21,421 nucleotides of DNA, taken from positions 1 to 21,421 of the IMG/VR virus record IMGVR_UViG_3300032246_000671; one strand, given 5' to 3'. Shown one piece after another: positions 1,342 to 18,806 of this stretch. Below the pieces are notes generated by a model. The model did not search any database. It was given only the letters and a program-made list of their open reading frames with translations, and was not told where the DNA came from. The DNA is from a virus. The position numbers were made by a program, and so were the translations under genes. How positions within the stretch are numbered: position 1 is the stretch's first letter; each line of letters starts with the position of its first letter.

Positions 1342-2340
1342 TTAGGCTTTCTGACGTGCCCTGATCATGGCCAAGATGTCTTGAGCTTTGTCACTAGATG
1401 CCGGAGCGGCTGCTACAGGAGCAGTTGCTACTGGTGGCTCTTCATCGTCAAAGTCACTTGATGTTGTTGATGTAGTAGTTCCTGTTGCCGCAAACCCACT
1501 GGTTTGTGCAGGAGCACTATCGGTTACTGGTGCTGATCCACCTGCAGGAGCATTAACACCTGCCGGGCGGAAATACTGACCCCAACGTTCTGTGTCATAG
1601 CTTTGACCATCAACTGACGCTTCGAACATTTCTTTGATTACTTTCAACTCAACGTCAGTTGGTTTCTTTGGTAAGAATGTTGAAAGATCAAACAAGCCGT
1701 GTTCAGCAATGGCTGCTTGTTCAGCTTCTGTGAGTGCTGTTTCTTTACGTGCCCACTTTGATCCTGAGTAGTCAGCAAAGCCGCCTTTGGAGCCTTTGGT
1801 GATACGGAAGTCTAAACCACGCATCAAGTCTGTTGGCAATTCTTCCAACTCTGGATCCATCAATGCCGATTTAATTGTTGTAAAGATCTGTGGACCAATA
1901 ATGAAACGACGAATTGGGTTGGCTGGAGTCTTGTCATCTGACAATGGATTCTCGCGAACAAAGCCTTGGAAAATATAACTACGCTTCTTCCAATACTTAC
2001 GACCCATTTCTTCTAGACTCTTGTCCTTGAACCAAGTGCGAACTTCTGTCAACACTGGGCAAGTCTCTTGCCACATTTCTACGCAAGGCACCTGAACATA
2101 TACTTGTTTTGATTCCATCTCGCCTTTGATGCCGTTAAATGGTAAACGGATCATAGCACGTTCTTGCCAAAAGAATGTGTTCTTTGAGTTACCGTCTGGG
2201 AGGAATCTGAGTGTTGCGGCTCCGCCTTCTTCCATATTCCAGTGTGGATAAATTGCATTATCACCACCTGTGGAGTTGCCGCCTTGTTGTTTACCTTCTG
2301 ATTGTGCGAGTCTTGCACGGATTTCTGCTAATGATGCCAT
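1342..2340 (-). CDS. 32: Single-stranded DNA-binding protein gp32
   Basis: This 332-residue protein matches the T4 gp32 layout. A short basic N-terminal segment (SLAEIRARLAQ) would serve cooperative binding. A core follows with aromatic and basic residues and an Ala/Pro/Thr-rich linker from about residue 265. An acidic stretch (SSDFDDEEPP) comes next and the protein ends in a helix, DILAMIRARQKA, as expected for the tail that contacts other replication proteins. It would coat ssDNA in replication, recombination and repair. Only two Cys, C86 and C94, lie in the region equivalent to the T4 zinc site (His plus three Cys), so zinc binding may be reduced or absent. A 159-bp leader with repeats and a hairpin lies upstream. 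The ribosome-binding site is GAAAGG, 8 bp before the ATG. T4 gp32 represses its own translation, and the leader here suggests comparable control. Confidence 0.85.
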   Translation of the reverse strand: MASLAEIRARLAQSEGKQQGGNSTGGDNAIYPHWNMEEGGAATLRFLPDGNSKNTFFWQERAMIRLPFNGIKGEMESKQVYVQVPCVEMWQETCPVLTEVRTWFKDKSLEEMGRKYWKKRSYIFQGFVRENPLSDDKTPANPIRRFIIGPQIFTTIKSALMDPELEELPTDLMRGLDFRITKGSKGGFADYSGSKWARKETALTEAEQAAIAEHGLFDLSTFLPKKPTDVELKVIKEMFEASVDGQSYDTERWGQYFRPAGVNAPAGGSAPVTDSAPAQTSGFAATGTTTSTTSSDFDDEEPPVATAPVAAAPASSDKAQDILAMIRARQKA

Positions 2341-2345
2341 AATAA

Positions 2346-2402
2346 GTTGCCTTTCAAATTGTTTATGGTTGTTGCCTATCTAAATTTTAGATTACGTTGC
2401 CT
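2346..2402 (-). repeat. Three AGGCAAC repeats at 25-bp spacing in the gene 32 leader
   Basis: On the minus strand AGGCAAC occurs at 2402-2396, 2377-2371 and 2352-2346, with starts exactly 25 bp apart. The spacers are AT-rich. The copy nearest the gene forms part of the Shine-Dalgarno region (GAAAGGCAAC). A perfect palindrome, ATCTAAA-A-TTTAGAT on the minus strand, occupies 2378-2392 between the first two copies. The position in the untranslated leader of an autoregulated protein suggests an RNA operator, but that role is inferred. Confidence 0.7.
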
Positions 2403-2411
2403 GTGATACTA

Positions 2412-2450
2412 AAGAAAAAAGCGTATTCACTTGTGTAGTGTACACGCTTT
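2412..2450 (-). terminator. Hairpin terminator between the 699-residue gene and gene 32
   Basis: Read on the minus strand, AAAGCGTGT pairs with ATACGCTTT (with one G-U pair), then comes an A-A mismatch, then CACT pairs with AGTG around a 5-base loop. The stem (2418-2450) is followed by a T-rich run, TTTTTTCTTT on the minus strand (2420 down to about 2411). This is the form of a Rho-independent terminator for transcripts leaving the 699-residue gene. Because gene 32 lies downstream, it may also act as an attenuator. Confidence 0.75.
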
Positions 2451-2458
2451 ATTTCTTA

Positions 2459-2480
2459 GCGTCAAGTATATTTATGACGC
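2459..2480 (-). promoter_or_regulatory. Late-promoter-like CATAAATA within a small hairpin
   Basis: The minus strand reads CATAAATA at 2476-2469, close to the T4 late octamer TATAAATA. It is flanked by a 6-bp inverted repeat, GCGTCA (2480-2475) and TGACGC (2464-2459). A transcript from here would start near 2463, cross the terminator hairpin at 2412-2450 and then enter gene 32. It could be a late promoter with attenuation, or a chance match in AT-rich intergenic sequence. Confidence 0.4.
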
Positions 2481-2499
2481 GGTTGTTCAGAATGTAGAA

Positions 2500-4599
2500 T
2501 TACTTCTTCATTCCGGAGAGTTCTTTGAGTCTATCCAAAAAGCTCAAATCTTTACTAACTGGTTTCATTTTACCGCTGTGTCCGTATTGGCCAGCTAACG
2601 GACTGGAATCGGCTCCCCAGCACTCTTCCATGCCGTGTACAGCACAGTTTTCGCCAGCTTCGGTCATGTTGCACTCAGAACCTTCGTTGAATTCTAAATC
2701 ATTGTCTTGGCCGCCCGGTACCAACGGAGCACGATTGGTTGGTTGGGCAGGTTCAGCTGGAACGCCATCTAGGTCTTCGGGTGTTACACCAGGATTGGAA
2801 TCATCTTTTAACAAATCTTTGTATTTGTTTTGGAATTCGCTTTTAGTCATGCCGTGTGCTTTGATAAATTGTACATCATTCATAACCTTGCAATCTTGAC
2901 GCATGATATCAATGTTTTTCATTTGGCCTTCGTCGGTCATTTCGGGGGCCATGCCAGCAAGTTCGCGGATTCTACTCTTTTCTTCGGCATAGTCGCCGTG
3001 CATAACACTTTCACGTTCTAAACTGTAGTCTTCTTCTGGATCGCTAGGACTATTCATGCCAGCACCAGGATGCCCTAAATCTTTAGCGAAACGATCAGCT
3101 ACCCATTCGTGCGGATCACCGGAACGAGCTTTTTTAACACCGTATGGCATATCGTCATCGTAGTAGTCGTACAATGCATTATATAGGTCGTCACTTAATT
3201 CGTCAGTTTCTTCAAAGTCTCGAACATCACGTTTAAATGTATCCATGATATGTTGCAGTTTTGAACCGGTATCATCAGTTAATACACTTTCATTCATGGG
3301 CTCTAGGTCAGCAGGGTTAGTTGGCTCTGCAGGATTCATTTCTGCGGTAGCATCAATGTTTAATTGCTCAATAACTTTTCTTACATCTGGATCGTTGCTT
3401 AACTCTTGCATACGATCAAGGATCACTTGACGTGCATCAGCATTGGCGTCACGTTCGGCTAGTTCTTCTAACTGATCAAACAGTTTATCGTCACCAATTA
3501 AATTGTACAGTTGTTCAGTGACATTGGTAGCATCGGCACCTACTGGCAGATCAGTACTCAACAGTTCAACCAATTCAGCTTGCTTCTCTGGTGTGTCTGG
3601 TGTTTGCCATGTTCCTTCGGTTAGGCGTTCTGCCCAGGCTTCAAATATGTTGGCTTCTTTCATTGCTGTTCCTTGTTGTTGTATTTTGGCCAGCAAGGGA
3701 AGTGCTGACTCAATTCTTGTGTCAATACTTTGCTTGACAAAAAGACTTTTTAAACTTTCAATCACTACATCCTGTTCTGAAATTTCAGCAGGGCTCCATG
3801 ATTCAAAATATGTTGTATATCCAGTTTTAGTACCAAGACCTTTGAGACTGCGTTGTAAGTTTGATTGGTATTCTTGAACTTGTTCTACTAATTGTTGTGT
3901 GTCGCCTTCAAAGATTTGACCTTGATTGGCACGACGGAAACGACTCAACACATTTAATTCTGTTACTATTTCTGCGATATGGTTGCCACGTGAATCATAA
4001 GGGCGACCACCCTGTCGAACATGTTCCAACATGGCTTTACCGCCGGTTAGACTCTTGAATGGCAATTTGTAACGTTCGCTGTCGGCTGTTTCGATAAACA
4101 AACTTTCAATGTAACGGAAACGGGCATCACCCTCGCCAATTGTTTTCTTGTGACGAATCATTAGACGTGCTTCTGTTGCGACACCATTCCAGCTGGTTGT
4201 TTTATTGCCAGTCCAAGATTCAAACAGGCCTTCTTTGATGGCGGCCTGTCCTTGCATACTGTAACGTAAGCGATTCAAGTTCTTGATTCCAAAGCTGTAA
4301 AAATTACGCACCGCAAAGTTTTTAAGTTGTTCTAAGAAAGCGAACCAATTGTTCTTGTCGGCACCTTCCATGCTACGGCCCACATTGTCAGCACAATATA
4401 CATCTAATTCGTTATTGTCACTGAGCATGATTACCACTGTGCCGTAGTCTTTGCCCGATTCTGCACGGAAGTCAAAACTGAATATTTCTGCTTCAGCAGG
4501 ATCTGGTGCTGGTTTGCCAGAGCTGTCTAGCATTTCTGGGTCAAAATCTCTACTGACTAACAAGTCATAAAGTTGTCGTGCGGGTGTTTGCTGTGCCAT
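2500..4599 (-). CDS. Large acidic protein, possibly virion-associated, function unknown
   Basis: I cannot assign this 699-residue protein to a named T4 gene. The first 330 or so residues look folded and carry three aromatic motifs: FESW (126-129), FESW (265-268) and FEAW (319-322). The middle and C-terminal parts are highly charged and probably flexible, with acidic runs (for example YDYYDDDMPYG) and Pro/Glu-rich linkers. Near the end are ECN and NCAVHGMEECWG, a Cys/His cluster that could hold a metal. The protein ends in a predicted amphipathic helix, LDRLKELSGMKK, echoed by IRELAGM further upstream. It lies directly after the terminase large subunit and ends before a strong terminator. No clear Shine-Dalgarno precedes the ATG. 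Position, size and composition suggest a structural, core or internal head protein, but that is inference. Confidence 0.75.
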   Translation of the reverse strand: MAQQTPARQLYDLLVSRDFDPEMLDSSGKPAPDPAEAEIFSFDFRAESGKDYGTVVIMLSDNNELDVYCADNVGRSMEGADKNNWFAFLEQLKNFAVRNFYSFGIKNLNRLRYSMQGQAAIKEGLFESWTGNKTTSWNGVATEARLMIRHKKTIGEGDARFRYIESLFIETADSERYKLPFKSLTGGKAMLEHVRQGGRPYDSRGNHIAEIVTELNVLSRFRRANQGQIFEGDTQQLVEQVQEYQSNLQRSLKGLGTKTGYTTYFESWSPAEISEQDVVIESLKSLFVKQSIDTRIESALPLLAKIQQQGTAMKEANIFEAWAERLTEGTWQTPDTPEKQAELVELLSTDLPVGADATNVTEQLYNLIGDDKLFDQLEELAERDANADARQVILDRMQELSNDPDVRKVIEQLNIDATAEMNPAEPTNPADLEPMNESVLTDDTGSKLQHIMDTFKRDVRDFEETDELSDDLYNALYDYYDDDMPYGVKKARSGDPHEWVADRFAKDLGHPGAGMNSPSDPEEDYSLERESVMHGDYAEEKSRIRELAGMAPEMTDEGQMKNIDIMRQDCKVMNDVQFIKAHGMTKSEFQNKYKDLLKDDSNPGVTPEDLDGVPAEPAQPTNRAPLVPGGQDNDLEFNEGSECNMTEAGENCAVHGMEECWGADSSPLAGQYGHSGKMKPVSKDLSFLDRLKELSGMKK

Positions 4600-4613: not shown

Positions 4614-6179
4614 TTAATATCTGGTGCTAATGAATGGCATGGGCGGCTGTACAACATCACCGTGATCCCGCATTTGATTGTCCATTTCCAAAGAAAATGA
4701 CTGTAGCTGTTGCATCATACGCACAGCTAAAACTGTGCTCATGACCAAATCGTCGGTTTCTCCGGGCTTGGCTGCAAATCCTACACCGTGGGCCACAAAA
4801 GTTTTAAGCTCACTGACCAAACTGCTACTGCGTATTTTCATCCGCCCGTTTTCAATCAAAGTTTTAAGTTTGTTACAGGCAACAAGTTTACTTTTTGGAG
4901 CAGTATTAAATCCCTTGCGATATCTACGGTTTCCACCGCCACCGGGTTCGCTGAGGAAATATCCAGGAATATTTTCTTCTCCGTATTCAGCTATGCTGAT
5001 CAGTGCAGCTTCACCAATGGTGTTGTTTTCGATACTGTAGTATATGTTTTCAGGCGAATTGGTTTTTTCATTTATGTGCCTGCAAATATCAGCCAGTATG
5101 CGAATTTGTTCTGGTATAGGTGTTCGATTATGACGCCACTCGCCAATTTGTTCTGTGGTGTTGGCTTCAAAAATTTGTATAGCAGCTGGATCGCCACCGG
5201 TGCCCAAACTAGGGTCCAAGGACACTACATAAATTCTATCAGCTTTGGGATGTTGATACCAACGCACTTGTCCAGTTTTATACATGGGCTCGTGCCCTTG
5301 TAATTCTATTAGTTTGGCCGGAGCAATAAGTGTTTCGTCGTTGATAATAAACTCGCAACCCATCTCTCTACGAAAACGATCATCGCCTAGCTGTGCTCGC
5401 TGTTCTGCGGCCCACTTTTCGTCACGGTCTGGATGTTCATTCCAATAACTGCGATAGGCTCTAAATCCATTGATGCCCAGCTGAGTAGGATTGCCAAACT
5501 CATCCTCGCATTTGTTGGCACCTTTCCATAATAACGCAAACTGATCTTCGTCTGAGTTTGGTGTACTAGTAATAATTGCCTTACCACCAGTGGCCAAGGT
5601 AGGGCTGATACTGGTCCAAAATTCTTTGGCAATGGTGGGCCGAACAAATGCAAACTCGTCAGCGTAAAGTAAGGTTATACTCATACCACGACCGGTATTT
5701 TCTGTGGTTGTGGTTGAAACTATTCGACTACCGTTTTCAAAATCCAAGTTACCTTTGTTGTAACTTGTAACACCTGCTCGAATATGATCTGGACACAGTT
5801 CATAAGCATAGCGAATACGTTGCATGATCTCTTGTGAGCCTGTGTATTTGTGTGCGGCAATAAGGATAGTAGAGTCTGGACGGAACATGGCCATCCACAA
5901 CAAATATCCAGCGGCACTTGTACTCTTACCAGTCTGTCGCGGCATCATGGATATACTATAACGATAATTGTGGTAAGTGTCTATTAGACGTTTTTGATAG
6001 TCAAACGGATGATACAGCATCTTTCCTTTGGTAGGATGTTGTATGTGGAAGAAATGATCCATGAAGTATTGTGGTCCTGTTACAGGATCAGCACAGGCCA
6101 TGAACTCAGCCAACTGCTGGTCGGTCCAATGCTGGCGACGATAGGGTGCTTTAACTAATGTCGATGCGTCTTGTGCCAC
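4614..6179 (-). CDS. 17: Terminase large subunit gp17 (packaging ATPase/nuclease)
   Basis: This 521-residue protein has the features of T4-type large terminases, which drive DNA into the prohead and cut the concatemer. The ATPase domain has a Walker A motif, MMPRQTGKST (78-87), a Walker B segment, LLYADE (170-175), and the coupling motif TSTPN (201-205). The C-terminal RNase H-like nuclease domain begins near VVSLDPSLGTGGD, with acidic D319 and D327, a further Glu in SIENN and an Asp pair in TDDLVMS. It is shorter than T4 gp17 (610 residues), mainly at the N-terminus. The start is a GTG, supported by AAGGAG 5 bases upstream that overlaps the stop of the preceding radical SAM gene. Unlike in T4, the small-subunit gene (11762-12247) is about 5.6 kb away. 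Confidence 0.95.
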   Translation of the reverse strand: MAQDASTLVKAPYRRQHWTDQQLAEFMACADPVTGPQYFMDHFFHIQHPTKGKMLYHPFDYQKRLIDTYHNYRYSISMMPRQTGKSTSAAGYLLWMAMFRPDSTILIAAHKYTGSQEIMQRIRYAYELCPDHIRAGVTSYNKGNLDFENGSRIVSTTTTENTGRGMSITLLYADEFAFVRPTIAKEFWTSISPTLATGGKAIITSTPNSDEDQFALLWKGANKCEDEFGNPTQLGINGFRAYRSYWNEHPDRDEKWAAEQRAQLGDDRFRREMGCEFIINDETLIAPAKLIELQGHEPMYKTGQVRWYQHPKADRIYVVSLDPSLGTGGDPAAIQIFEANTTEQIGEWRHNRTPIPEQIRILADICRHINEKTNSPENIYYSIENNTIGEAALISIAEYGEENIPGYFLSEPGGGGNRRYRKGFNTAPKSKLVACNKLKTLIENGRMKIRSSSLVSELKTFVAHGVGFAAKPGETDDLVMSTVLAVRMMQQLQSFSLEMDNQMRDHGDVVQPPMPFISTRY

Positions 6180-6180
6180 A

Positions 6181-7323
6181 CTAACTCCTTAACTGTTCTA
6201 CAAGGGCTGGCCATAACTGTTCAAATGTTGTGGTCTTATTTAACTCTTTTTCTATCTGCGTATGCCATTCTATTGGCCCTACTTTAGGAGCTGTAAACGT
6301 ATCATCTAACAATCTTTTGCGATATTGTAGCAAAATATTAAACGATCCAGGAGCATTAGCGTAGTTTTTGACTACATAGTCAATCTCAGCAATGGCAAGA
6401 TCTCTTAACGGTTTAGGAAGTCGACAAACATCCAAGGACCAAGGATGAGTTACATCGCACCAAAAGATTTCTAAATTGTGTTGTTTACAAAATTCATAAT
6501 ATTCTTTTAAATCAAATGCACAATAAATTGAGTATGCTGGATGTGCCATTACTCGCTGTTGATCTTGTTGTAAAATTTTTACGTTGTCAACAAATTGTTC
6601 CCAGTTGGCTCCGTGCCTAACATATTCAAATTTTTGTTTATTACAATTATCAAAACTAATTTGCCATTCTACTGTGGGCCAGGTTTTTAATTCTTGATAA
6701 ATTTTATTTTTGGTTAAATCAATACTGAGATTTGTGGTAACCATTACATTAACTTGGTTAGGGTCTAACTCATTGAGAAATTCCAACAGTCCAGGTTGTA
6801 AAAGTGGTTCGCCGCCGCCAAGACATAGGCCTTGCAGTTTTTTTCCTTGATTCCTGGCCAGCTTTATCAAACTGTCATGTTCATTTTTTATGTGTGTTAT
6901 GGGAAGTTTTTTGGCCGCTTGCCAGGCGGTACTGGTTTGAGGATTACAATAGGTGCAGGTTAAATTACACAGGTTACTCCAGTTAATTGATACATGCTGA
7001 GGCTCAAACCAATCAAAATCATTGTTGATCTTGTCTAATGATTCTTGATTACATCGACGACGAGTTCTTGCACTGGTACCATCAATTGATTCAAAATGTT
7101 GACATCGTTGACAGTGCGGATGCCACTGCCCCTGAGCCATGGCCTGTTTGATTTCAATATGCATTGGTCCATTGAGTATTTTGTCAATGGGCTGAGATTT
7201 GATATTTCCTATAGGCCGGGTCATCATAAAACAACACGACGTGTTACCTTCTTGATCAATGTTTAGGCCTGTCCAAGGTGCAGAACAAAATGTGGGGTTA
7301 TCAGTTATTTTAAATTGTGCCAT
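6181..7323 (-). CDS. Radical SAM protein with extra Cys clusters (twitch/SPASM-like)
   Basis: This 380-residue protein has the radical SAM core motif CNLTCTYC (119-126) and a GGGEP motif (169-173). Before the core are Cys pairs typical of twitch/SPASM-like relatives: C13 in TFCSAPW, C30-C31 in NTSCCFM, and CQRC at 71-74. These could ligate an auxiliary iron-sulfur cluster. Such proteins cleave SAM to make a deoxyadenosyl radical and often modify peptides or small molecules; the substrate here is unknown. The gene sits 22 bp after the exported nuclease gene and its end carries the Shine-Dalgarno for terminase, so it belongs to the same operon. No clear Shine-Dalgarno precedes its own ATG. It resembles the truncated radical SAM gene at the left edge in layout but is clearly diverged. 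Confidence 0.88.
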   Translation of the reverse strand: MAQFKITDNPTFCSAPWTGLNIDQEGNTSCCFMMTRPIGNIKSQPIDKILNGPMHIEIKQAMAQGQWHPHCQRCQHFESIDGTSARTRRRCNQESLDKINNDFDWFEPQHVSINWSNLCNLTCTYCNPQTSTAWQAAKKLPITHIKNEHDSLIKLARNQGKKLQGLCLGGGEPLLQPGLLEFLNELDPNQVNVMVTTNLSIDLTKNKIYQELKTWPTVEWQISFDNCNKQKFEYVRHGANWEQFVDNVKILQQDQQRVMAHPAYSIYCAFDLKEYYEFCKQHNLEIFWCDVTHPWSLDVCRLPKPLRDLAIAEIDYVVKNYANAPGSFNILLQYRKRLLDDTFTAPKVGPIEWHTQIEKELNKTTTFEQLWPALVEQLRS

Positions 7324-7345: not shown

Positions 7346-8056
7346 TTACGGACCTAAATTAAAACGCATACCAGTTGCTTGCTCTACTGTTGCCATAGGT
7401 ACTTGATACTTGGGTAAATCTGCCACCGGCAGTGCGGTATTTGGCATTAGATATGCTTGAACGTTACGACTGTTCTTTTCAATGATGATCTTGTATAGGC
7501 GTGTTGGGATACCCAGACCGTTGCCCACAACAGGATGTCCAGGATCGTAAATACCACCTGAGATGATGTAAAAGTCTGTGCCAGGAGCTGTGGCCCACTG
7601 ACGCTCCCAAGTTTCTAACTGTTTCCAAATGCCGCGATTGTTGTTGGCCACTTGTGCTACCATATTGCTTAGGAAAAATGACTCTGACATGATGTCATCG
7701 TTTTGTGTGTTGTTGCCTGCAGGAGCCATGTGTCCGCGGTCGTGTGTGCGACCCACTGTAGCATAGTCAGCTAGAGTAGCACTGCATTGTGGAAATACTG
7801 CTGGATCTGGGCGGAAGTTATCTTTGCGTTTGGCAGGACCAGTCATTGCGGCCATGGTCAAATGTTCAAACACGGCCACAGGTGCCTTGACACTACAGCG
7901 ATGGATCACAGCATAATTCTTATGGCAGATCTCTTGATCACCGGGTTGAGCTTGATATTCGGGTGTGCCGTTCGCTGTAAACTGTGGACATTGAGTGTTG
8001 ATCTGTGCCAGGGCCGCGAGTGGAGTAAAGATTAATACTAAGAGTAATTTTTTCAT
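7346..8056 (-). CDS. Exported DNA/RNA non-specific endonuclease (NucA/Serratia-type)
   Basis: This 236-residue protein starts with a classic signal peptide, MKKLLLVLIFTPLAALA, with probable cleavage before Q18. DRGHMAPAGNN (106-116) is the betabetaalpha-metal nuclease motif, with H109 as the general base. NNNRGIW (138-144) supplies the Asn that coordinates magnesium. Four Cys (23, 44, 54, 91) in the mature part could form disulfides after export. The protein should degrade DNA and RNA in the periplasm or outside the cell. Its ATG overlaps the stop of the upstream gene (ATGA), so translation is coupled. An exported nuclease in a lytic phage could recycle nucleotides, block a second phage or attack extracellular DNA; the sequence does not decide between these. 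The nuclease fold and the signal peptide are both clear. Confidence 0.9.
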   Translation of the reverse strand: MKKLLLVLIFTPLAALAQINTQCPQFTANGTPEYQAQPGDQEICHKNYAVIHRCSVKAPVAVFEHLTMAAMTGPAKRKDNFRPDPAVFPQCSATLADYATVGRTHDRGHMAPAGNNTQNDDIMSESFFLSNMVAQVANNNRGIWKQLETWERQWATAPGTDFYIISGGIYDPGHPVVGNGLGIPTRLYKIIIEKNSRNVQAYLMPNTALPVADLPKYQVPMATVEQATGMRFNLGP

Positions 8057-8439
8057 CTTGGATAACCCTTGAAGCCTTTTACAGGACTGGTTGTATCAGT
8101 GTTAAGAGGTTCCTCACTGTGACCTGTACCAATTAATTTTTTTCCACCCGGAGTGTCGGTCATTTGTAATGCTTGATCTATAATGGGATCTACTGTGTTG
8201 TTCATACCAGCTACCACAGCATGATTTCCAAACACTTCTTTTTTGTTCCAGGGCAATATATAAGGATTTAACTCATCTTTGACTGCATCGCTTCTAGCAC
8301 GGGCCATTGCCACGCCAAATCTATAAATTTGATATGGCTGATCCGAACTCAATCCCGGAAGTATAAAAGTTTGGCGTAGTGGATCACCTTGATCGGGCGG
8401 TAATTTTTGTTCTTCAGTAATAAACTCTCGAGCTCTCAT
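8053..8439 (-). CDS. Small protein with capsid-targeting-like N-terminus
   Basis: This 128-residue protein is of unknown function. It starts MRAREFITEEQK, which resembles the T4 internal-protein capsid-targeting sequence MKTYQEFIAEA. The tripeptide ITE fits the (I/L)-x-E rule for cleavage by the gp21-type prohead protease. The body is polar with no membrane segment. It ends TSPVKGFKGYPR, nearly the same as the end of the next gene upstream (SPVKGFAGYPR). Both its start and its stop overlap the neighbouring genes by 4 bp (ATGA), so it is tightly coupled to its paralogous neighbour and to the exported nuclease. I infer that it may be packaged in the head and trimmed there; the alternative is an ordinary cytoplasmic phage protein with a chance match. 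Confidence 0.8.
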   Translation of the reverse strand: MRAREFITEEQKLPPDQGDPLRQTFILPGLSSDQPYQIYRFGVAMARARSDAVKDELNPYILPWNKKEVFGNHAVVAGMNNTVDPIIDQALQMTDTPGGKKLIGTGHSEEPLNTDTTSPVKGFKGYPR

Positions 8440-8819
8440 CTTGGGTAGCCTGCAAATCCTTTTACTGGACTTACCTTATGTGTATCTGGATGTTCCACAC
8501 TACGGTGGTCTGGCACAACATTCTTTGAATCAGCACCAATTGTCTTCAAAGCACCGTGAATCATGTTATCTTCTTCTTTGGTATAAGGATGTGCTGTATT
8601 ATATTTTTCAACCCACGATGCAGGGTCCATTTGATCTCTAGGTATTGCATTTTTTGTTTTGCCATCATGGCAAGCAGCTGCCATCATGACACGATTTAGA
8701 TGATTTGTACGATCGTATCCGCCGTTGTCTCGCATACGATATGCACCTGGCATTGCATTGTCGTAGCCGCCAGGAATTTTACCCTTGCGATCCTCAGCAA
8801 CAAACTCTCGAGCTCGCAT
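8436..8819 (-). CDS. Small protein with capsid-targeting-like N-terminus (paralogous ends)
   Basis: This 127-residue protein shares its first residues (MRAREFVAED) and its last (SPVKGFAGYPR) with the gene that follows, while the middle regions differ. The N-terminus again resembles the T4 capsid-targeting sequence, although the potential cleavage tripeptide is VAE, not the usual (I/L)xE. The middle contains AAACHDGK and many charged residues, with no recognisable enzyme motif. The start has a good Shine-Dalgarno (GGGAG, 7 bases before the ATG) located in the end of the upstream 98-residue gene. The stop overlaps the next start by 4 bp. Shared ends with unlike centres suggest cargo proteins built on a common targeting and terminal module. 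Function is unknown. Confidence 0.8.
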   Translation of the reverse strand: MRAREFVAEDRKGKIPGGYDNAMPGAYRMRDNGGYDRTNHLNRVMMAAACHDGKTKNAIPRDQMDPASWVEKYNTAHPYTKEEDNMIHGALKTIGADSKNVVPDHRSVEHPDTHKVSPVKGFAGYPR

Positions 8820-8821
8820 AG

Positions 8822-9118
8822 TTAAACTCCCGAGGAGTTGAATACGCTGTGTTGTGCTGAACTTTGTGTGCCCAGGGCGCGGACCGTAAAGTTGGTTCCG
8901 GTCATGATCAAATAGTTGCCGGCACCTACATAGATGTCTTTTATGGTTCCGTTAGGCACCGATACCGCATTGGCATATAGATTACCCACAGCATTGGCTG
9001 TACCCAAGGCAGTAGCAAATATCTGATAAGTCACATTGTTACTTTCAGAATTGATTTCAGCTTTATCTGTGGTCCATAATACATTACCTGCTGTGTCCTT
9101 GATTACTTGAGTAGCCAT
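8822..9118 (-). CDS. Small beta-rich hypothetical protein
   Basis: This 98-residue protein is rich in Thr, Asn, Val, Ala and Gly with alternating hydrophobic residues (for example VLWTTDKAEI and YLIMTGTNFTVRALG), suggesting an all-beta fold. It has no signal peptide, membrane segment or catalytic motif. AAGG lies 10 bases before the ATG, at the end of the upstream 668-residue gene, whose stop is 5 bp away. It lies inside the block between genes 16 and 17. A small head-decoration or particle-associated protein is plausible from fold and context, but I do not recognise the family. Confidence 0.7.
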   Translation of the reverse strand: MATQVIKDTAGNVLWTTDKAEINSESNNVTYQIFATALGTANAVGNLYANAVSVPNGTIKDIYVGAGNYLIMTGTNFTVRALGTQSSAQHSVFNSSGV

Positions 9119-9123
9119 TTTAA

Positions 9124-11130
9124 TTAACCTTTATAATTTTTCCAGGTCTTGAACAGACTGCGTTCAAGTTCAACTGATTCTTCCATTGATACTTGACGAC
9201 GCAGTTGACTGGCCACAACCGGAATGGTTGTTTGTCCGGTACTCTTGGGACCGTTTAGGCCACCTGAATATTGTAGTGCATCATCACTTGTTTCTGTATT
9301 GGTTGGATAGTCGGGACTATTTTCATCCAACTCTTCTTCGCAACCGCAATCAGCACTGCCACAGGCTGAACATACTTGTTGTTTCTGTCCGTTGCCTAGG
9401 CCAGCCATTTTTAACAAGTCTGCTAGGGCTTCCGCATCTTGCTCAGTAGCGTTTACGCTGATAGATTTTTTACCTTGCTCATCAACACTGATGTTTATGC
9501 TCATGCCTTCGGTGATCATTGATTCAACTCGGTTGTTGAATCCTTCGTATACACCTTTGCCAAACTGCATGCCTTTGCTGGCTTTAGAAGCGGCTGGTGC
9601 AGTGGCTACACTTCCTGACACTGTTGTTTCGTCAACTTTTTCTTCTTTTTCTTTGGCTGCTTTTTTCATTGGCTCGGATTTGTTGCCGTCCTTATCTAGA
9701 TCTAAGAAGTCTGGTTTGCCACCTTCTTTTACTTTGTTAGGCAGGCCTTTTTCTTTGGTTGCAGCAAATTTGTGTAGCTCACCTTGAGGCATTTTGGCCA
9801 TTTCTTTGCTGGCTCCACGTAACCGGCTCTTAGGAATTTCGCCCTTCTGTGCCGCATGTGCAATACCGGCTGCTCTGCGTTGAGCTTGGCTTACTGCTTT
9901 TTCTGCCATAGGTTCCATGTGTTGTTCTGCATCACGTTCGTGTGTACTGATAATATAATCTGTAACACTAGTCATCATGCCTTTGATCTGGCCAATCTTT
10001 TCTTGTACCCACTCTGGCAAGTTTTCATTGCTACGGAGAGCACGTTCAAGTTCTTTGGCATTACGAACAATAGTGTGCAATGAGTCTTTGGCCATACCAG
10101 CTTCGTCGTCATATTCGCCACGATCGGTAATAGGCATGCCATCTTCTTTGACCTTGCGTTCACCTTTGTGCTTGTAAGCATGTTTAGTGGTACGCTCTGG
10201 GCCTTTGGCAGGTCCTTTTGGACGTCCTTTACGCTTTGGCTCATTGCTTTTAACTTCGTCGTCTTTGTCAATGTCTGTGTCCGCTGCCTTGCGAGTGTAA
10301 CGCTTGCTGTAGCCAGTGTCTTGAACATCATAACGACTGTGTGTTTCTGCTTCTTTTTCTTTGCGAAGCTTGTCCATATGCTCTTTGTCAAAAGCTGTGC
10401 CTGTGCTACGCTTTTTATCACTGGCAGCTTTTTTCATTGTTTCTTTTTTGTTGCCATCGCCGTCAAGATCGATATAGTCAGGTTTGGCTTTTTTCTTTTC
10501 GCCAAGGCCAACCATGTCAGCTTCTTTAACAGGATAAATTTTACTACCAACGCGAATAGTTTCGCCTTTTTGTACGCCATCGGCTTTGGCCTTACGTACT
10601 GCATTGCCAAACGCAGTGCCTTCCTCAAAGTCGGCTTCATCCATTTTATCATAACGATTGCGAATCTGATCCATTTTGGCTTTGCCAGCATGTTCACGTA
10701 CAGCTTTTTGCAAGGCTTTCATTCCTTTGTCGCCATATTTTTTATTACCTAGGTAGGCTTGTAATGCACTTTCTTCCATGCTGTCACACTTGCATGGTGA
10801 GCAATCGCAGGCAGGGCAGTGACCTTCTTGAACTGACTCTTTAGGATGACGTAATTTGTTTAGCACTGCACCGGCTACACGCTCGCCAGCGGCTTTAGAT
10901 CCATAACGCTCGGCTGCACCTTTGGCAATCTTAGCAAAGTTCTTGCCTGGCTTGCCCAAGTCTTTACCGGCACGGCCTGCTTTGGCACTGTAGCCAGCTT
11001 CGGCTACTTCCATTGATTCAATCAATTTGCTTTTGGGAGCTACAGCTTTGGCTTCTTCGGCCAACTGTTTGGAATCTTGTTTGTCAGCCAATTGGGCCAA
11101 TCTTTTGTTTAGGTCGTAAAAAAATGTCAT
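9124..11130 (-). CDS. Large charged protein with EF-hand-like loops and Cys clusters
   Basis: This 668-residue protein is rich in Lys, Glu, Ala and Gly. The start at 11130 is preferred over a GTG at 11154 because AAGAGGA lies 8 bases before it, in the end of the upstream gene. Two similar units, PDYIDLDGDGNKKE (about 216-229) and PDFLDLDKDGNKSE (about 472-485), have the DxDxDG calcium loop of EF-hands, each followed by MKKAA. HCPACDCSPCKCDS (about 104-117) and VCSACGSADCGCEE (about 586-599) could bind zinc. KRKGRPKGPAKGP (about 307-319) looks like an AT-hook. Several (I/L)xE sites, such as LAEE, LIES and ITEG, would suit a prohead protease. I infer a DNA-contacting internal or core head protein. 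No T4 homologue is recognised and there is no catalytic motif. Confidence 0.8.
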   Translation of the reverse strand: MTFFYDLNKRLAQLADKQDSKQLAEEAKAVAPKSKLIESMEVAEAGYSAKAGRAGKDLGKPGKNFAKIAKGAAERYGSKAAGERVAGAVLNKLRHPKESVQEGHCPACDCSPCKCDSMEESALQAYLGNKKYGDKGMKALQKAVREHAGKAKMDQIRNRYDKMDEADFEEGTAFGNAVRKAKADGVQKGETIRVGSKIYPVKEADMVGLGEKKKAKPDYIDLDGDGNKKETMKKAASDKKRSTGTAFDKEHMDKLRKEKEAETHSRYDVQDTGYSKRYTRKAADTDIDKDDEVKSNEPKRKGRPKGPAKGPERTTKHAYKHKGERKVKEDGMPITDRGEYDDEAGMAKDSLHTIVRNAKELERALRSNENLPEWVQEKIGQIKGMMTSVTDYIISTHERDAEQHMEPMAEKAVSQAQRRAAGIAHAAQKGEIPKSRLRGASKEMAKMPQGELHKFAATKEKGLPNKVKEGGKPDFLDLDKDGNKSEPMKKAAKEKEEKVDETTVSGSVATAPAASKASKGMQFGKGVYEGFNNRVESMITEGMSINISVDEQGKKSISVNATEQDAEALADLLKMAGLGNGQKQQVCSACGSADCGCEEELDENSPDYPTNTETSDDALQYSGGLNGPKSTGQTTIPVVASQLRRQVSMEESVELERSLFKTWKNYKG

Positions 11131-11134
11131 TGTA

Positions 11135-11740
11135 TTATCCTCTTGGGTTTGCACCAGTAGCTGGGCGGGGTGGGCGTTTTACTTTGGTCATTGGGCTGGT
11201 GTTGCCCATTGGCAAATCATTTGTAGTTTTAGCAGGAGGTGTCTTACCACCAGCAACTGTGAATTCACTACGGTATGTGTTCTTGAGAACTGCGTGTTGA
11301 TCATAGGGTGCAGAGTAATCGGCACTCAAGGCCTTTTGTTCTGCGGTATCAGCAGGATAATCCGTATCCAACAAGTCTTTGTTCTGTGAGTCTAAACGCT
11401 CACGCTCACTGTCCATGCCATCTTCGTATGGTGTAGTCAACATGATAATTCTGTTGGGATCCATGAATAGCAATTGAGCAATCTGTTTGATCTGTGGCTC
11501 AATAGCTGGGTAGCGGAACTCTACGTCCATGCTGGTCACTGAATCGTTGCTGTGCTTGGGAAAGTCAGCTGGTTTCAATTGCACCGGTGTAGACTTTGGC
11601 TTGCCAATTTTGACTGGGTCAAACTGTGCGAGCTTTTCTTCCAAAGCCTTGACAAAATCAGGTGCAACATCACCTACAATTTTGATGCGATAATTGTAGG
11701 TTCTTTGGCTTTCAGCCAGGTATTCTTGAAATTTTTTCAT
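11135..11740 (-). CDS. Protein with T4 internal-protein-like capsid-targeting N-terminus
   Basis: This 201-residue protein starts MKKFQEYLAESQ, very close to the MKTYQEFIAEA that directs T4 internal proteins IPI-IPIII into the prohead; LAE fits the gp21-type cleavage rule. The segment after it (YNYRIKIVGDVAPDFVKALEEKL) looks like a small alpha/beta fold, followed by a conserved-looking core (SMDVEFRYPAIEP, LLFMDPNRIIML) and a Pro-rich basic tail (MTKVKRPPRPATGANPRG). It is the first gene of the block inserted between genes 16 and 17, with its own late-type promoter and AGGGAT Shine-Dalgarno. The inferred role is an internal head protein, possibly released into the host. The body matches no enzyme I know. 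Confidence 0.82.
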   Translation of the reverse strand: MKKFQEYLAESQRTYNYRIKIVGDVAPDFVKALEEKLAQFDPVKIGKPKSTPVQLKPADFPKHSNDSVTSMDVEFRYPAIEPQIKQIAQLLFMDPNRIIMLTTPYEDGMDSERERLDSQNKDLLDTDYPADTAEQKALSADYSAPYDQHAVLKNTYRSEFTVAGGKTPPAKTTNDLPMGNTSPMTKVKRPPRPATGANPRG

Positions 11741-18371: not shown

Positions 18372-18403
18372 CTTTTTCTAGTTATGAATATTTATAGAAA
18401 AAG
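18372..18403 (-). promoter_or_regulatory. Consensus late promoter TATAAATA within a hairpin covering the sheath RBS
   Basis: TATAAATA on the minus strand (18396-18389) matches the T4 late consensus exactly, 26 bp before the sheath ATG. It lies within a perfect 9-bp inverted repeat: CTTTTTCTA (18403-18395) and TAGAAAAAG (18380-18372). The 3' arm includes part of the Shine-Dalgarno AAGGA (18374-18370). A late transcript would start near 18383, inside the loop, and so lack the 5' arm. Confidence 0.75.
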
Positions 18404-18458
18404 TCAAAAAGAAGTGGTTATTAGTGGCCTTACGGTAAGGTCTAGGGTAAATAATAGC

Positions 18459-18806
18459 ATGACAAGACCCATTTGTACAGCCTGCAATCAAAGATTATGT
18501 GCTATAAACTGTTATCGCAATGGTAAAATATATTATCGCAGTCGTTGCGGAAGTTGTATTAGCCGAAACAAAAAAATTAAGGTACCCGACCCTAGATGGA
18601 AAACCGCTGGATATAAGAAAAAACCCACCTGTGATCGTTGTGGGTTCAAATCAAGATATAGTGTTCAGTTACTGGTTTATCATGTGGATGGAAATCTAAA
18701 TAATAATTCTACTCGTAACTTAAAAACTGTGTGTCAAAACTGTGCTGTAGAAATTCCTAAGGTTGATTTGCCTTGGCGGCTTGGAGATTTAGAACCAGAT
18801 CTTTAA
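18459..18806 (+). CDS. HNH-like zinc-binding protein
   Basis: This is the only plus-strand gene. From the ATG at 18459 it encodes 115 residues; an in-frame ATG at 18384 would add 25 residues but lacks a ribosome-binding site and would overlap the sheath promoter. AGGG lies 11 bases before 18459, which is a rather long gap. Two zinc sites are visible: C6, C9, C30, C33, and C58, C61, C92, C95. Between them VYHVDGNLNNNSTRNL (73-88) matches the His-Asn part of the HNH motif. The last His of HNH is missing, since CQNC is followed by AVE. It may be a nicking or homing-type endonuclease, or a nuclease relative that now only binds DNA. Its last 50 bp overlap the dNMP kinase gene tail to tail. Confidence 0.75.
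   Translation: MTRPICTACNQRLCAINCYRNGKIYYRSRCGSCISRNKKIKVPDPRWKTAGYKKKPTCDRCGFKSRYSVQLLVYHVDGNLNNNSTRNLKTVCQNCAVEIPKVDLPWRLGDLEPDL

Follow-up and report, generated by a model that had tools for sequence, protein, structure and literature searches.

Two small paralogous proteins encoded in the head and terminase block of an uncultured phage likely carry a T4-type capsid-targeting propeptide, which a gp21-type protease would remove during prohead assembly. A preliminary description of this DNA had grouped these two proteins, which open with MRAREF and are hereafter called the MRAREF proteins, with a third one opening with MKKFQEYL, and had proposed that all three form a modular set of packaged, co-injected cargo. 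Capsid targeting with gp21-type cleavage is the best-supported reading for the MRAREF pair, considering that the tag is kept among homologues, has moved onto other bodies, and is accompanied by a prohead protease, capsid propeptides, and a depletion of further cleavage sites. The MKKFQEYL protein is different in that it is more likely a head component than variable cargo.

The tagged genes and their block

The window (the whole 21.4-kb record that was analyzed, 21,421 nt) was read from its ORFs and homologies as a block of head, tail, and terminase genes. The large terminase subunit at the end of the block (4614-6179, minus strand) is 52% identical to that of the Pseudomonas jumbo phage PA5oct (tblastn), and the gene order of neck, kinase, sheath, tube, closure, gp283, gp282, and terminase is also that of PA5oct. 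The window thus represents part of the genome of a jumbo T4-like myovirus that is uncultured. IMG/VR holds contigs that are near-identical or related to it, and no DNA-level match was found among named phages.

All three ORFs are present on the minus strand with the N-termini first described. The 201-aa protein (11135-11740) starts with MKKFQEYLAE (11711-11740), followed by S. The 127-aa MRAREF protein of subtype A (8436-8819; 35 IMG/VR loci) starts with MRAREFVAE (8793-8819), followed by D, and the 128-aa protein of subtype B (8053-8439) starts with MRAREFITE (8413-8439), followed by E. The two MRAREF genes are in tandem, with overlapping start and stop codons. While the three genes do lie in one block, as had been claimed, they are not contiguous, as a 676-aa and a 98-aa ORF stand between them. 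The originally printed pattern, with three residues before the E, fits MKKFQEYLAE but not the MRAREF tags, which have two residues there. Likewise, the proposed likeness to the start MKTYQEFIAEA of the T4 internal proteins (IPs) IPI to IPIII holds for IPII and IPIII, but not for IPI, which starts with MKTFKEFTSTT and has its cleavage site at ITE-19 (T4 NC_000866).

A strict motif in which the spacing before the E may be two or three residues, M[KR].{2,3}E[FY][ILV].E, opens 3 of the 23 ORFs of the window, where its internal frequency predicts 0.003. This count is not by itself an independent test, as the motif was in part derived from the same sequences. Two large relatives provide a better test, and here 7 of 678 ORFs open with the motif against about 0.016 expected. 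It also opens two ORFs in the T4 segment and none in lambda, T7, PA5oct, or Atu_ph07; the lack of such N-termini in lambda and T7 agrees with the view that they would not occur in phages without a prohead protease.

Block order was compared over 25 loci with both ends, the window included, some of which are overlapping views of one contig. The gp282 homologue is followed by a 676-aa-like protein, an optional MKTLRDYL protein, a 98-aa-like protein, and one to three MRAREF genes, after which usually a nuclease, often a radical SAM protein, and then the terminase are found; a few of the 25 loci have no recognized 98-aa gene, MRAREF gene, or nuclease. In other subclades, a few genes often separate the MRAREF genes from the terminase, and some loci have no terminase nearby. 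Within the window, the untagged 676-aa protein (9124-11154, minus strand), with a DUF3008 domain (PF11450, E=4e-15), occupies the place of PA5oct gp281, a virion protein by MS, a correspondence that is positional only. The untagged 98-aa protein (8822-9118, minus strand) is a nearly constant member of the block according to gene order in relatives. In contrast to the window, MRAREF genes are missing from the stretch between gp281 and the terminase in PA5oct.

The 676-aa protein is highly variable among relatives, and in some it is duplicated or tagged (MKTLKDYLEE). A DNA/RNA non-specific endonuclease that has no tag but starts like a signal peptide (7346-8056, minus strand; PF01223, E=9e-38) lies between the MRAREF genes and the terminase in most relatives; a secreted nuclease is an odd member of a late head block. 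The radical SAM/SPASM protein next to the terminase (6181-7323, minus strand; PF04055, PF13186) occurs in zero to two diverged copies at this position in relatives.

Retention and spread of the MRAREF tag

The tag resemblance seen in the window extends across related phages. An HMM built from MRAREF bodies without the tag, with a remaining bias in that its training members all bear the tag, recovered 142 unique homologues, and in 104 of these MRA.EF..E was evident at once. Among the other 38, two (L030 and L046) are fragments truncated where a contig or segment stops, and the starts seen were GTG or TTG forms (VRA/LRA.EF..E) or the variants MRARDFVAE, MKITEVIIE, MKIKDIISE, and MKIKDIIIE. Some profile matches began inside the protein with the tag lying upstream; the tag was present in all five of those printed in full, and a script located it in further homologues of this kind. 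Every start examined was a tag or a variant of it, with the inspection covering homologues other than L162 and the check by eye part of the set, and no complete MRAREF homologue without a tag is known.

Another explanation would be that recent DNA-level gene conversion or duplication, or a role as a translation-start element, maintains the tag without any function in the protein. The tandem array of paralogues and its overlapping start and stop codons would suit such an origin. However, the tag is written in 130 different DNA sequences in 140 genes, with synonymous codons changing freely, so that selection on it acts at the protein level; a DNA-level element is thereby ruled out, and we give the explanation as a whole almost no weight.

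The two MRAREF bodies had been described as unlike, which proved incorrect: the proteins align over their full length (BLASTP E=2e-7, 26% identity), and subfamily profiles with tag and tail removed are collinear over 86 columns (E=5e-4, with a probability of only 32%). By these alignments, the two are distant paralogues. Both contain a core helix of the 'YR..VA.A' type and share a C-terminal tail, SPVKGFxGYPR, that was absent from the preliminary description; alignment and, for subtype A, the tail codons place it as SPVKGFAGYPR at 8439-8471 in subtype A and as SPVKGFKGYPR at 8056-8088 in subtype B (both minus strand). As far as the alignments go, this tail is a second family signal besides the tag. 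In the first set of loci it was found on no protein outside the MRAREF family, and in a wider set on one, a transporter-suffix protein. MRAREF copy number ranges from 1 to 4 in relatives, and the bodies diverge to about 24% identity. The structural model (pLDDT 82, pTM 0.51) has two 14-residue helices in mostly coil, the tag being its lowest-confidence part (54 versus a mean of 82), and a PDB fold search with it returned no match. Similarly, the 127-aa protein had no match in Pfam, PHROG, or named phages, three MRAREF proteins had none at E<=1 in 50,697 phage records (tblastn), and a search with one member as query found the family in no bacterial or archaeal genome.

While the window's two MRAREF genes alone would not reveal it, in relatives the same tag is found on several unrelated bodies. 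A GNAT-like protein opens with MRAHEFLSE, a weakly ParB-like protein with MRAEEFLFE, DUF6321 proteins with MKAYEFITE or MRASEFIVE, and other proteins with MKTLRDYLAE. DUF6321 also occurs with MRAAEFIVE inside an MRAREF array, the placement seen for the tagged DUF6321 gene of locus L170. In the cyanophages read, a DUF6321 body is likewise encoded near the terminase, but as the C-terminal domain of a larger protein without an MRA tag. At L241:4651-5004, also inside an MRAREF array, the tag MRAKEFVNE and a family-like tail, LKPLKGYKR, flank a transporter-suffix domain (NF033684, E=2.6e-16); this ORF comes from a single contig of a metagenome, in which misassembly could have produced it. Taken over hundreds of relatives, the distribution suggests that the tag is a reusable head-loading label.

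Two further proteins were noticed among these loci. In Prochlorococcus phage P-TIM68 (L316), a DUF6321 protein (1976-3259) lies directly upstream of the terminase, placed like the tagged gene of L170. Locus L278 encodes a 314-aa protein (5366-6310) with the start MRAKELINE and a YHYT motif, for which no sequence match was found in Pfam, NCBIfam, or the PDB. The motif is reminiscent of ADP-ribosyltransferase-like phage proteins.

Could the N-terminus instead be integral to the fold, or mediate an interaction that has nothing to do with head assembly, its likeness to T4 being convergence? The MRA.EF pattern is more constrained than a T4 tag has to be, the C-terminal tail is fixed too, so that both ends might serve another partner, and the tag of the gp282 homologue is a predicted helix. 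In contrast to what this would imply, the same N-terminus stands on unrelated bodies, and one body type changes its tag class to MKIKDII.E in other phages while keeping I-x-E. Moreover, the (I/L/V)-x-E end is kept: the E is invariant in 62 aligned sequences, and the position before it varies freely. We therefore regard convergence as unlikely.

Prohead protease and cleavage sites

The preliminary description had proposed looking for a gp21-type protease elsewhere in the genome, and Peptidase S77, which is of this type, was found in 11 of 17 MRAREF-bearing IMG/VR contigs, including all six longer than 300 kb; the contigs in which it was not found are all 200 kb or less. It is also present in PA5oct, Atu_ph07, and Phosso, and was not seen in the window record, which spans only 21 kb. 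A head cassette of portal, gp67, gp68, protease, gp22, and capsid, assigned by position, occurs in the relative G002 and in PA5oct. The capsid propeptides of relatives end in YLKE/NAS, YLRE/NAS, or FLVE/NAS where T4 has FLTE/A, the slash marking the cut position, which is presumed in the relatives.

The tags close with the same type of site, namely LAE in the 201-aa protein and ITE in subtype B, with VAE in subtype A being a conservative departure. Beyond the tag, (I/L)-x-E sites occur at 0.23 of the shuffled expectation in 35 MRAREF proteins that are less than 70% identical yet still related sequences, and 89% of them have none. The corresponding value is 0.0 in three T4 IPs, 0.70 in the untagged 98-aa family, 0.85 in the gp282 family (one further site of this type, ALE, in the 201-aa protein), and 1.3-2.1 in the nuclease, radical SAM, terminase, 676-aa, 699-aa, gp283, and SSB families.

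Mutational work has explained capsid targeting in T4, and the propeptides of other giant phages are longer. The MRAREF proteins resemble T4 IPI, IPII, IPIII, and Alt, with their capsid-targeting sequence (CTS), in having an N-terminal tag that is short, contains an aromatic residue, and closes with (I/L)-x-E, as well as a single cleavage site, several small tagged proteins per genome, and a gp21-type protease (here in relatives). They differ in ways that count against the preferred reading, as MRA.EF[IV].E is one residue shorter and has no aromatic at T4 position 4 (its F6 equals T4 position 7), and the subtype A site has V in place of I or L. Further differences are that the T4 IP genes lie near e and tRNA genes and the MRAREF genes near the terminase, that the window copies are paralogues with a conserved C-terminal tail, and that the mature MRAREF proteins are not consistently basic (median pI 7.2), unlike the T4 IPs. 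The inner-head ejection proteins of phiKZ-like phages (e.g., SPN3US gp53/gp54) are comparable as diverged paralogues with an identical short N-terminus and prohead-protease motifs (PMC5694885); their propeptides, however, are mostly over 100 residues, their cleavage motif is another, and they belong to another lineage.

In the mechanism that we propose, the N-terminal 9-10 residues would act as a T4-type capsid-targeting propeptide, which, by analogy with T4, would bind the scaffold core during prohead assembly and draw the protein inside. A gp21-type protease would then cut after (I/L/V)-x-E, leaving new starts at D or E in the MRAREF pair and at S in the gp282 homologue. The MRAREF pair are paralogues from a family that diverges fast and is duplicated in tandem, as the family and the array show, and its members would be internal head proteins. 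Once cleaved, they would probably remain beside the DNA within the head, and they may reach the host cell. Over 230 MRAREF proteins of uncultured phages bear the tag, and if this mechanism is correct, candidate internal head proteins could be read from metagenomes in a group in which most genes have no known function.

The gp282 homologue and the fate of tagged proteins

The 201-aa protein is homologous to PA5oct gp282 (tblastn 28.6%, E=5e-7; PHROG 14802, E=8e-5) and lies in the same place, between gp283 and the terminase. PA5oct gp282 is annotated as a structural protein and was detected in the virion by ESI-MS/MS. The gp282 homologues are syntenic in relatives, with 76% mean column identity in 37 aligned sequences, and 81 of 85 match M[KR].F..[YF][LIV].E; the exceptions are L014 (MTKTFSQYLTE), Atu_ph07 (MKTLQDYLTE), PA5oct (MKSFRDYYDA), and Phosso (MKNFYEYLSS). 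Since the 201-aa protein is a conserved, syntenic homologue of a virion protein, it is probably a conserved head component with the same class of tag and would stand outside the variable set.

Unlike the MRAREF tag, the tag of this protein has both F4 and Y7 of the T4 CTS. Residues 4 and 7 of the T4 IPIII tag direct targeting and residues 8 and 10 processing, and F4, Y7, L8, and E10 of MKKFQEYLAE match these positions tested by mutation (PMC9026906). PA5oct gp282, which starts with MKSFRDYYDAS, and its Phosso counterpart keep F4 and Y7 but have lost E10, and the PA5oct protein, which has also lost L8, is still found in the virion. It may thus serve as a natural experiment in which the targeting residues are kept and the cleavage residues lost. 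In PA5oct, a loose form of the tag occurs on two MS-detected proteins and one undetected protein, too few to test an association. The AF2 model of the 201-aa protein (pLDDT 69) has an N-terminal helix that includes the tag, followed by a ferredoxin-like first half; a function could not be assigned from the fold, as the only PDB matches were weak ones of the ribosomal S6/ACT-like ferredoxin type (whole-query TM about 0.3).

If the tag is a true prohead propeptide, the tagged proteins could still have a structural role in the head, as core, shell-lining, or DNA-packing proteins, and remain behind in the emptied capsid instead of being injected, a serious alternative that we place somewhat short of an even chance. 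The T4 shell protein gp24 (MAKINELLRE) and gp22 (MLKEQLIAE) likewise start with propeptides ending in (I/L)-x-E, and with so comparable a cleaved start on a shell protein, the tag is not proof of cargo or injection. The virion detection of gp282 and the position of the MRAREF genes in the head-terminase block in most relatives also point this way, whereas the variable copy number and divergence of MRAREF bodies, and the enzyme-like and membrane bodies that bear the tag, seem to argue against it. This alternative shares targeting with the propeptide reading and differs only on injection, so that the two are not mutually exclusive. Injection of the tagged proteins and a role against host defenses are possible. 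More tentatively, and as something we would rather doubt than expect, the removable MRA.EF[IV].E tag and the retained SPVxxFxGYPR tail may form a two-ended cassette, i.e., a portable head-loading shuttle with swappable unrelated bodies (in one contig, a membrane transporter-suffix domain) that would supply a fast-evolving injected set beside the terminase in uncultured aquatic jumbo phages.

Elsewhere in the window, one site identical to the T4 late-promoter consensus (TATAAATA, 18389-18396, minus strand) lies ~30 bases before the sheath start codon; it was rejected as a signal, as chance alone would yield about one such site in the window. A plus-strand ORF (18384-18806) with CxxC pairs, HNH-endonuclease-like by eye, sits between the minus-strand sheath and kinase genes.
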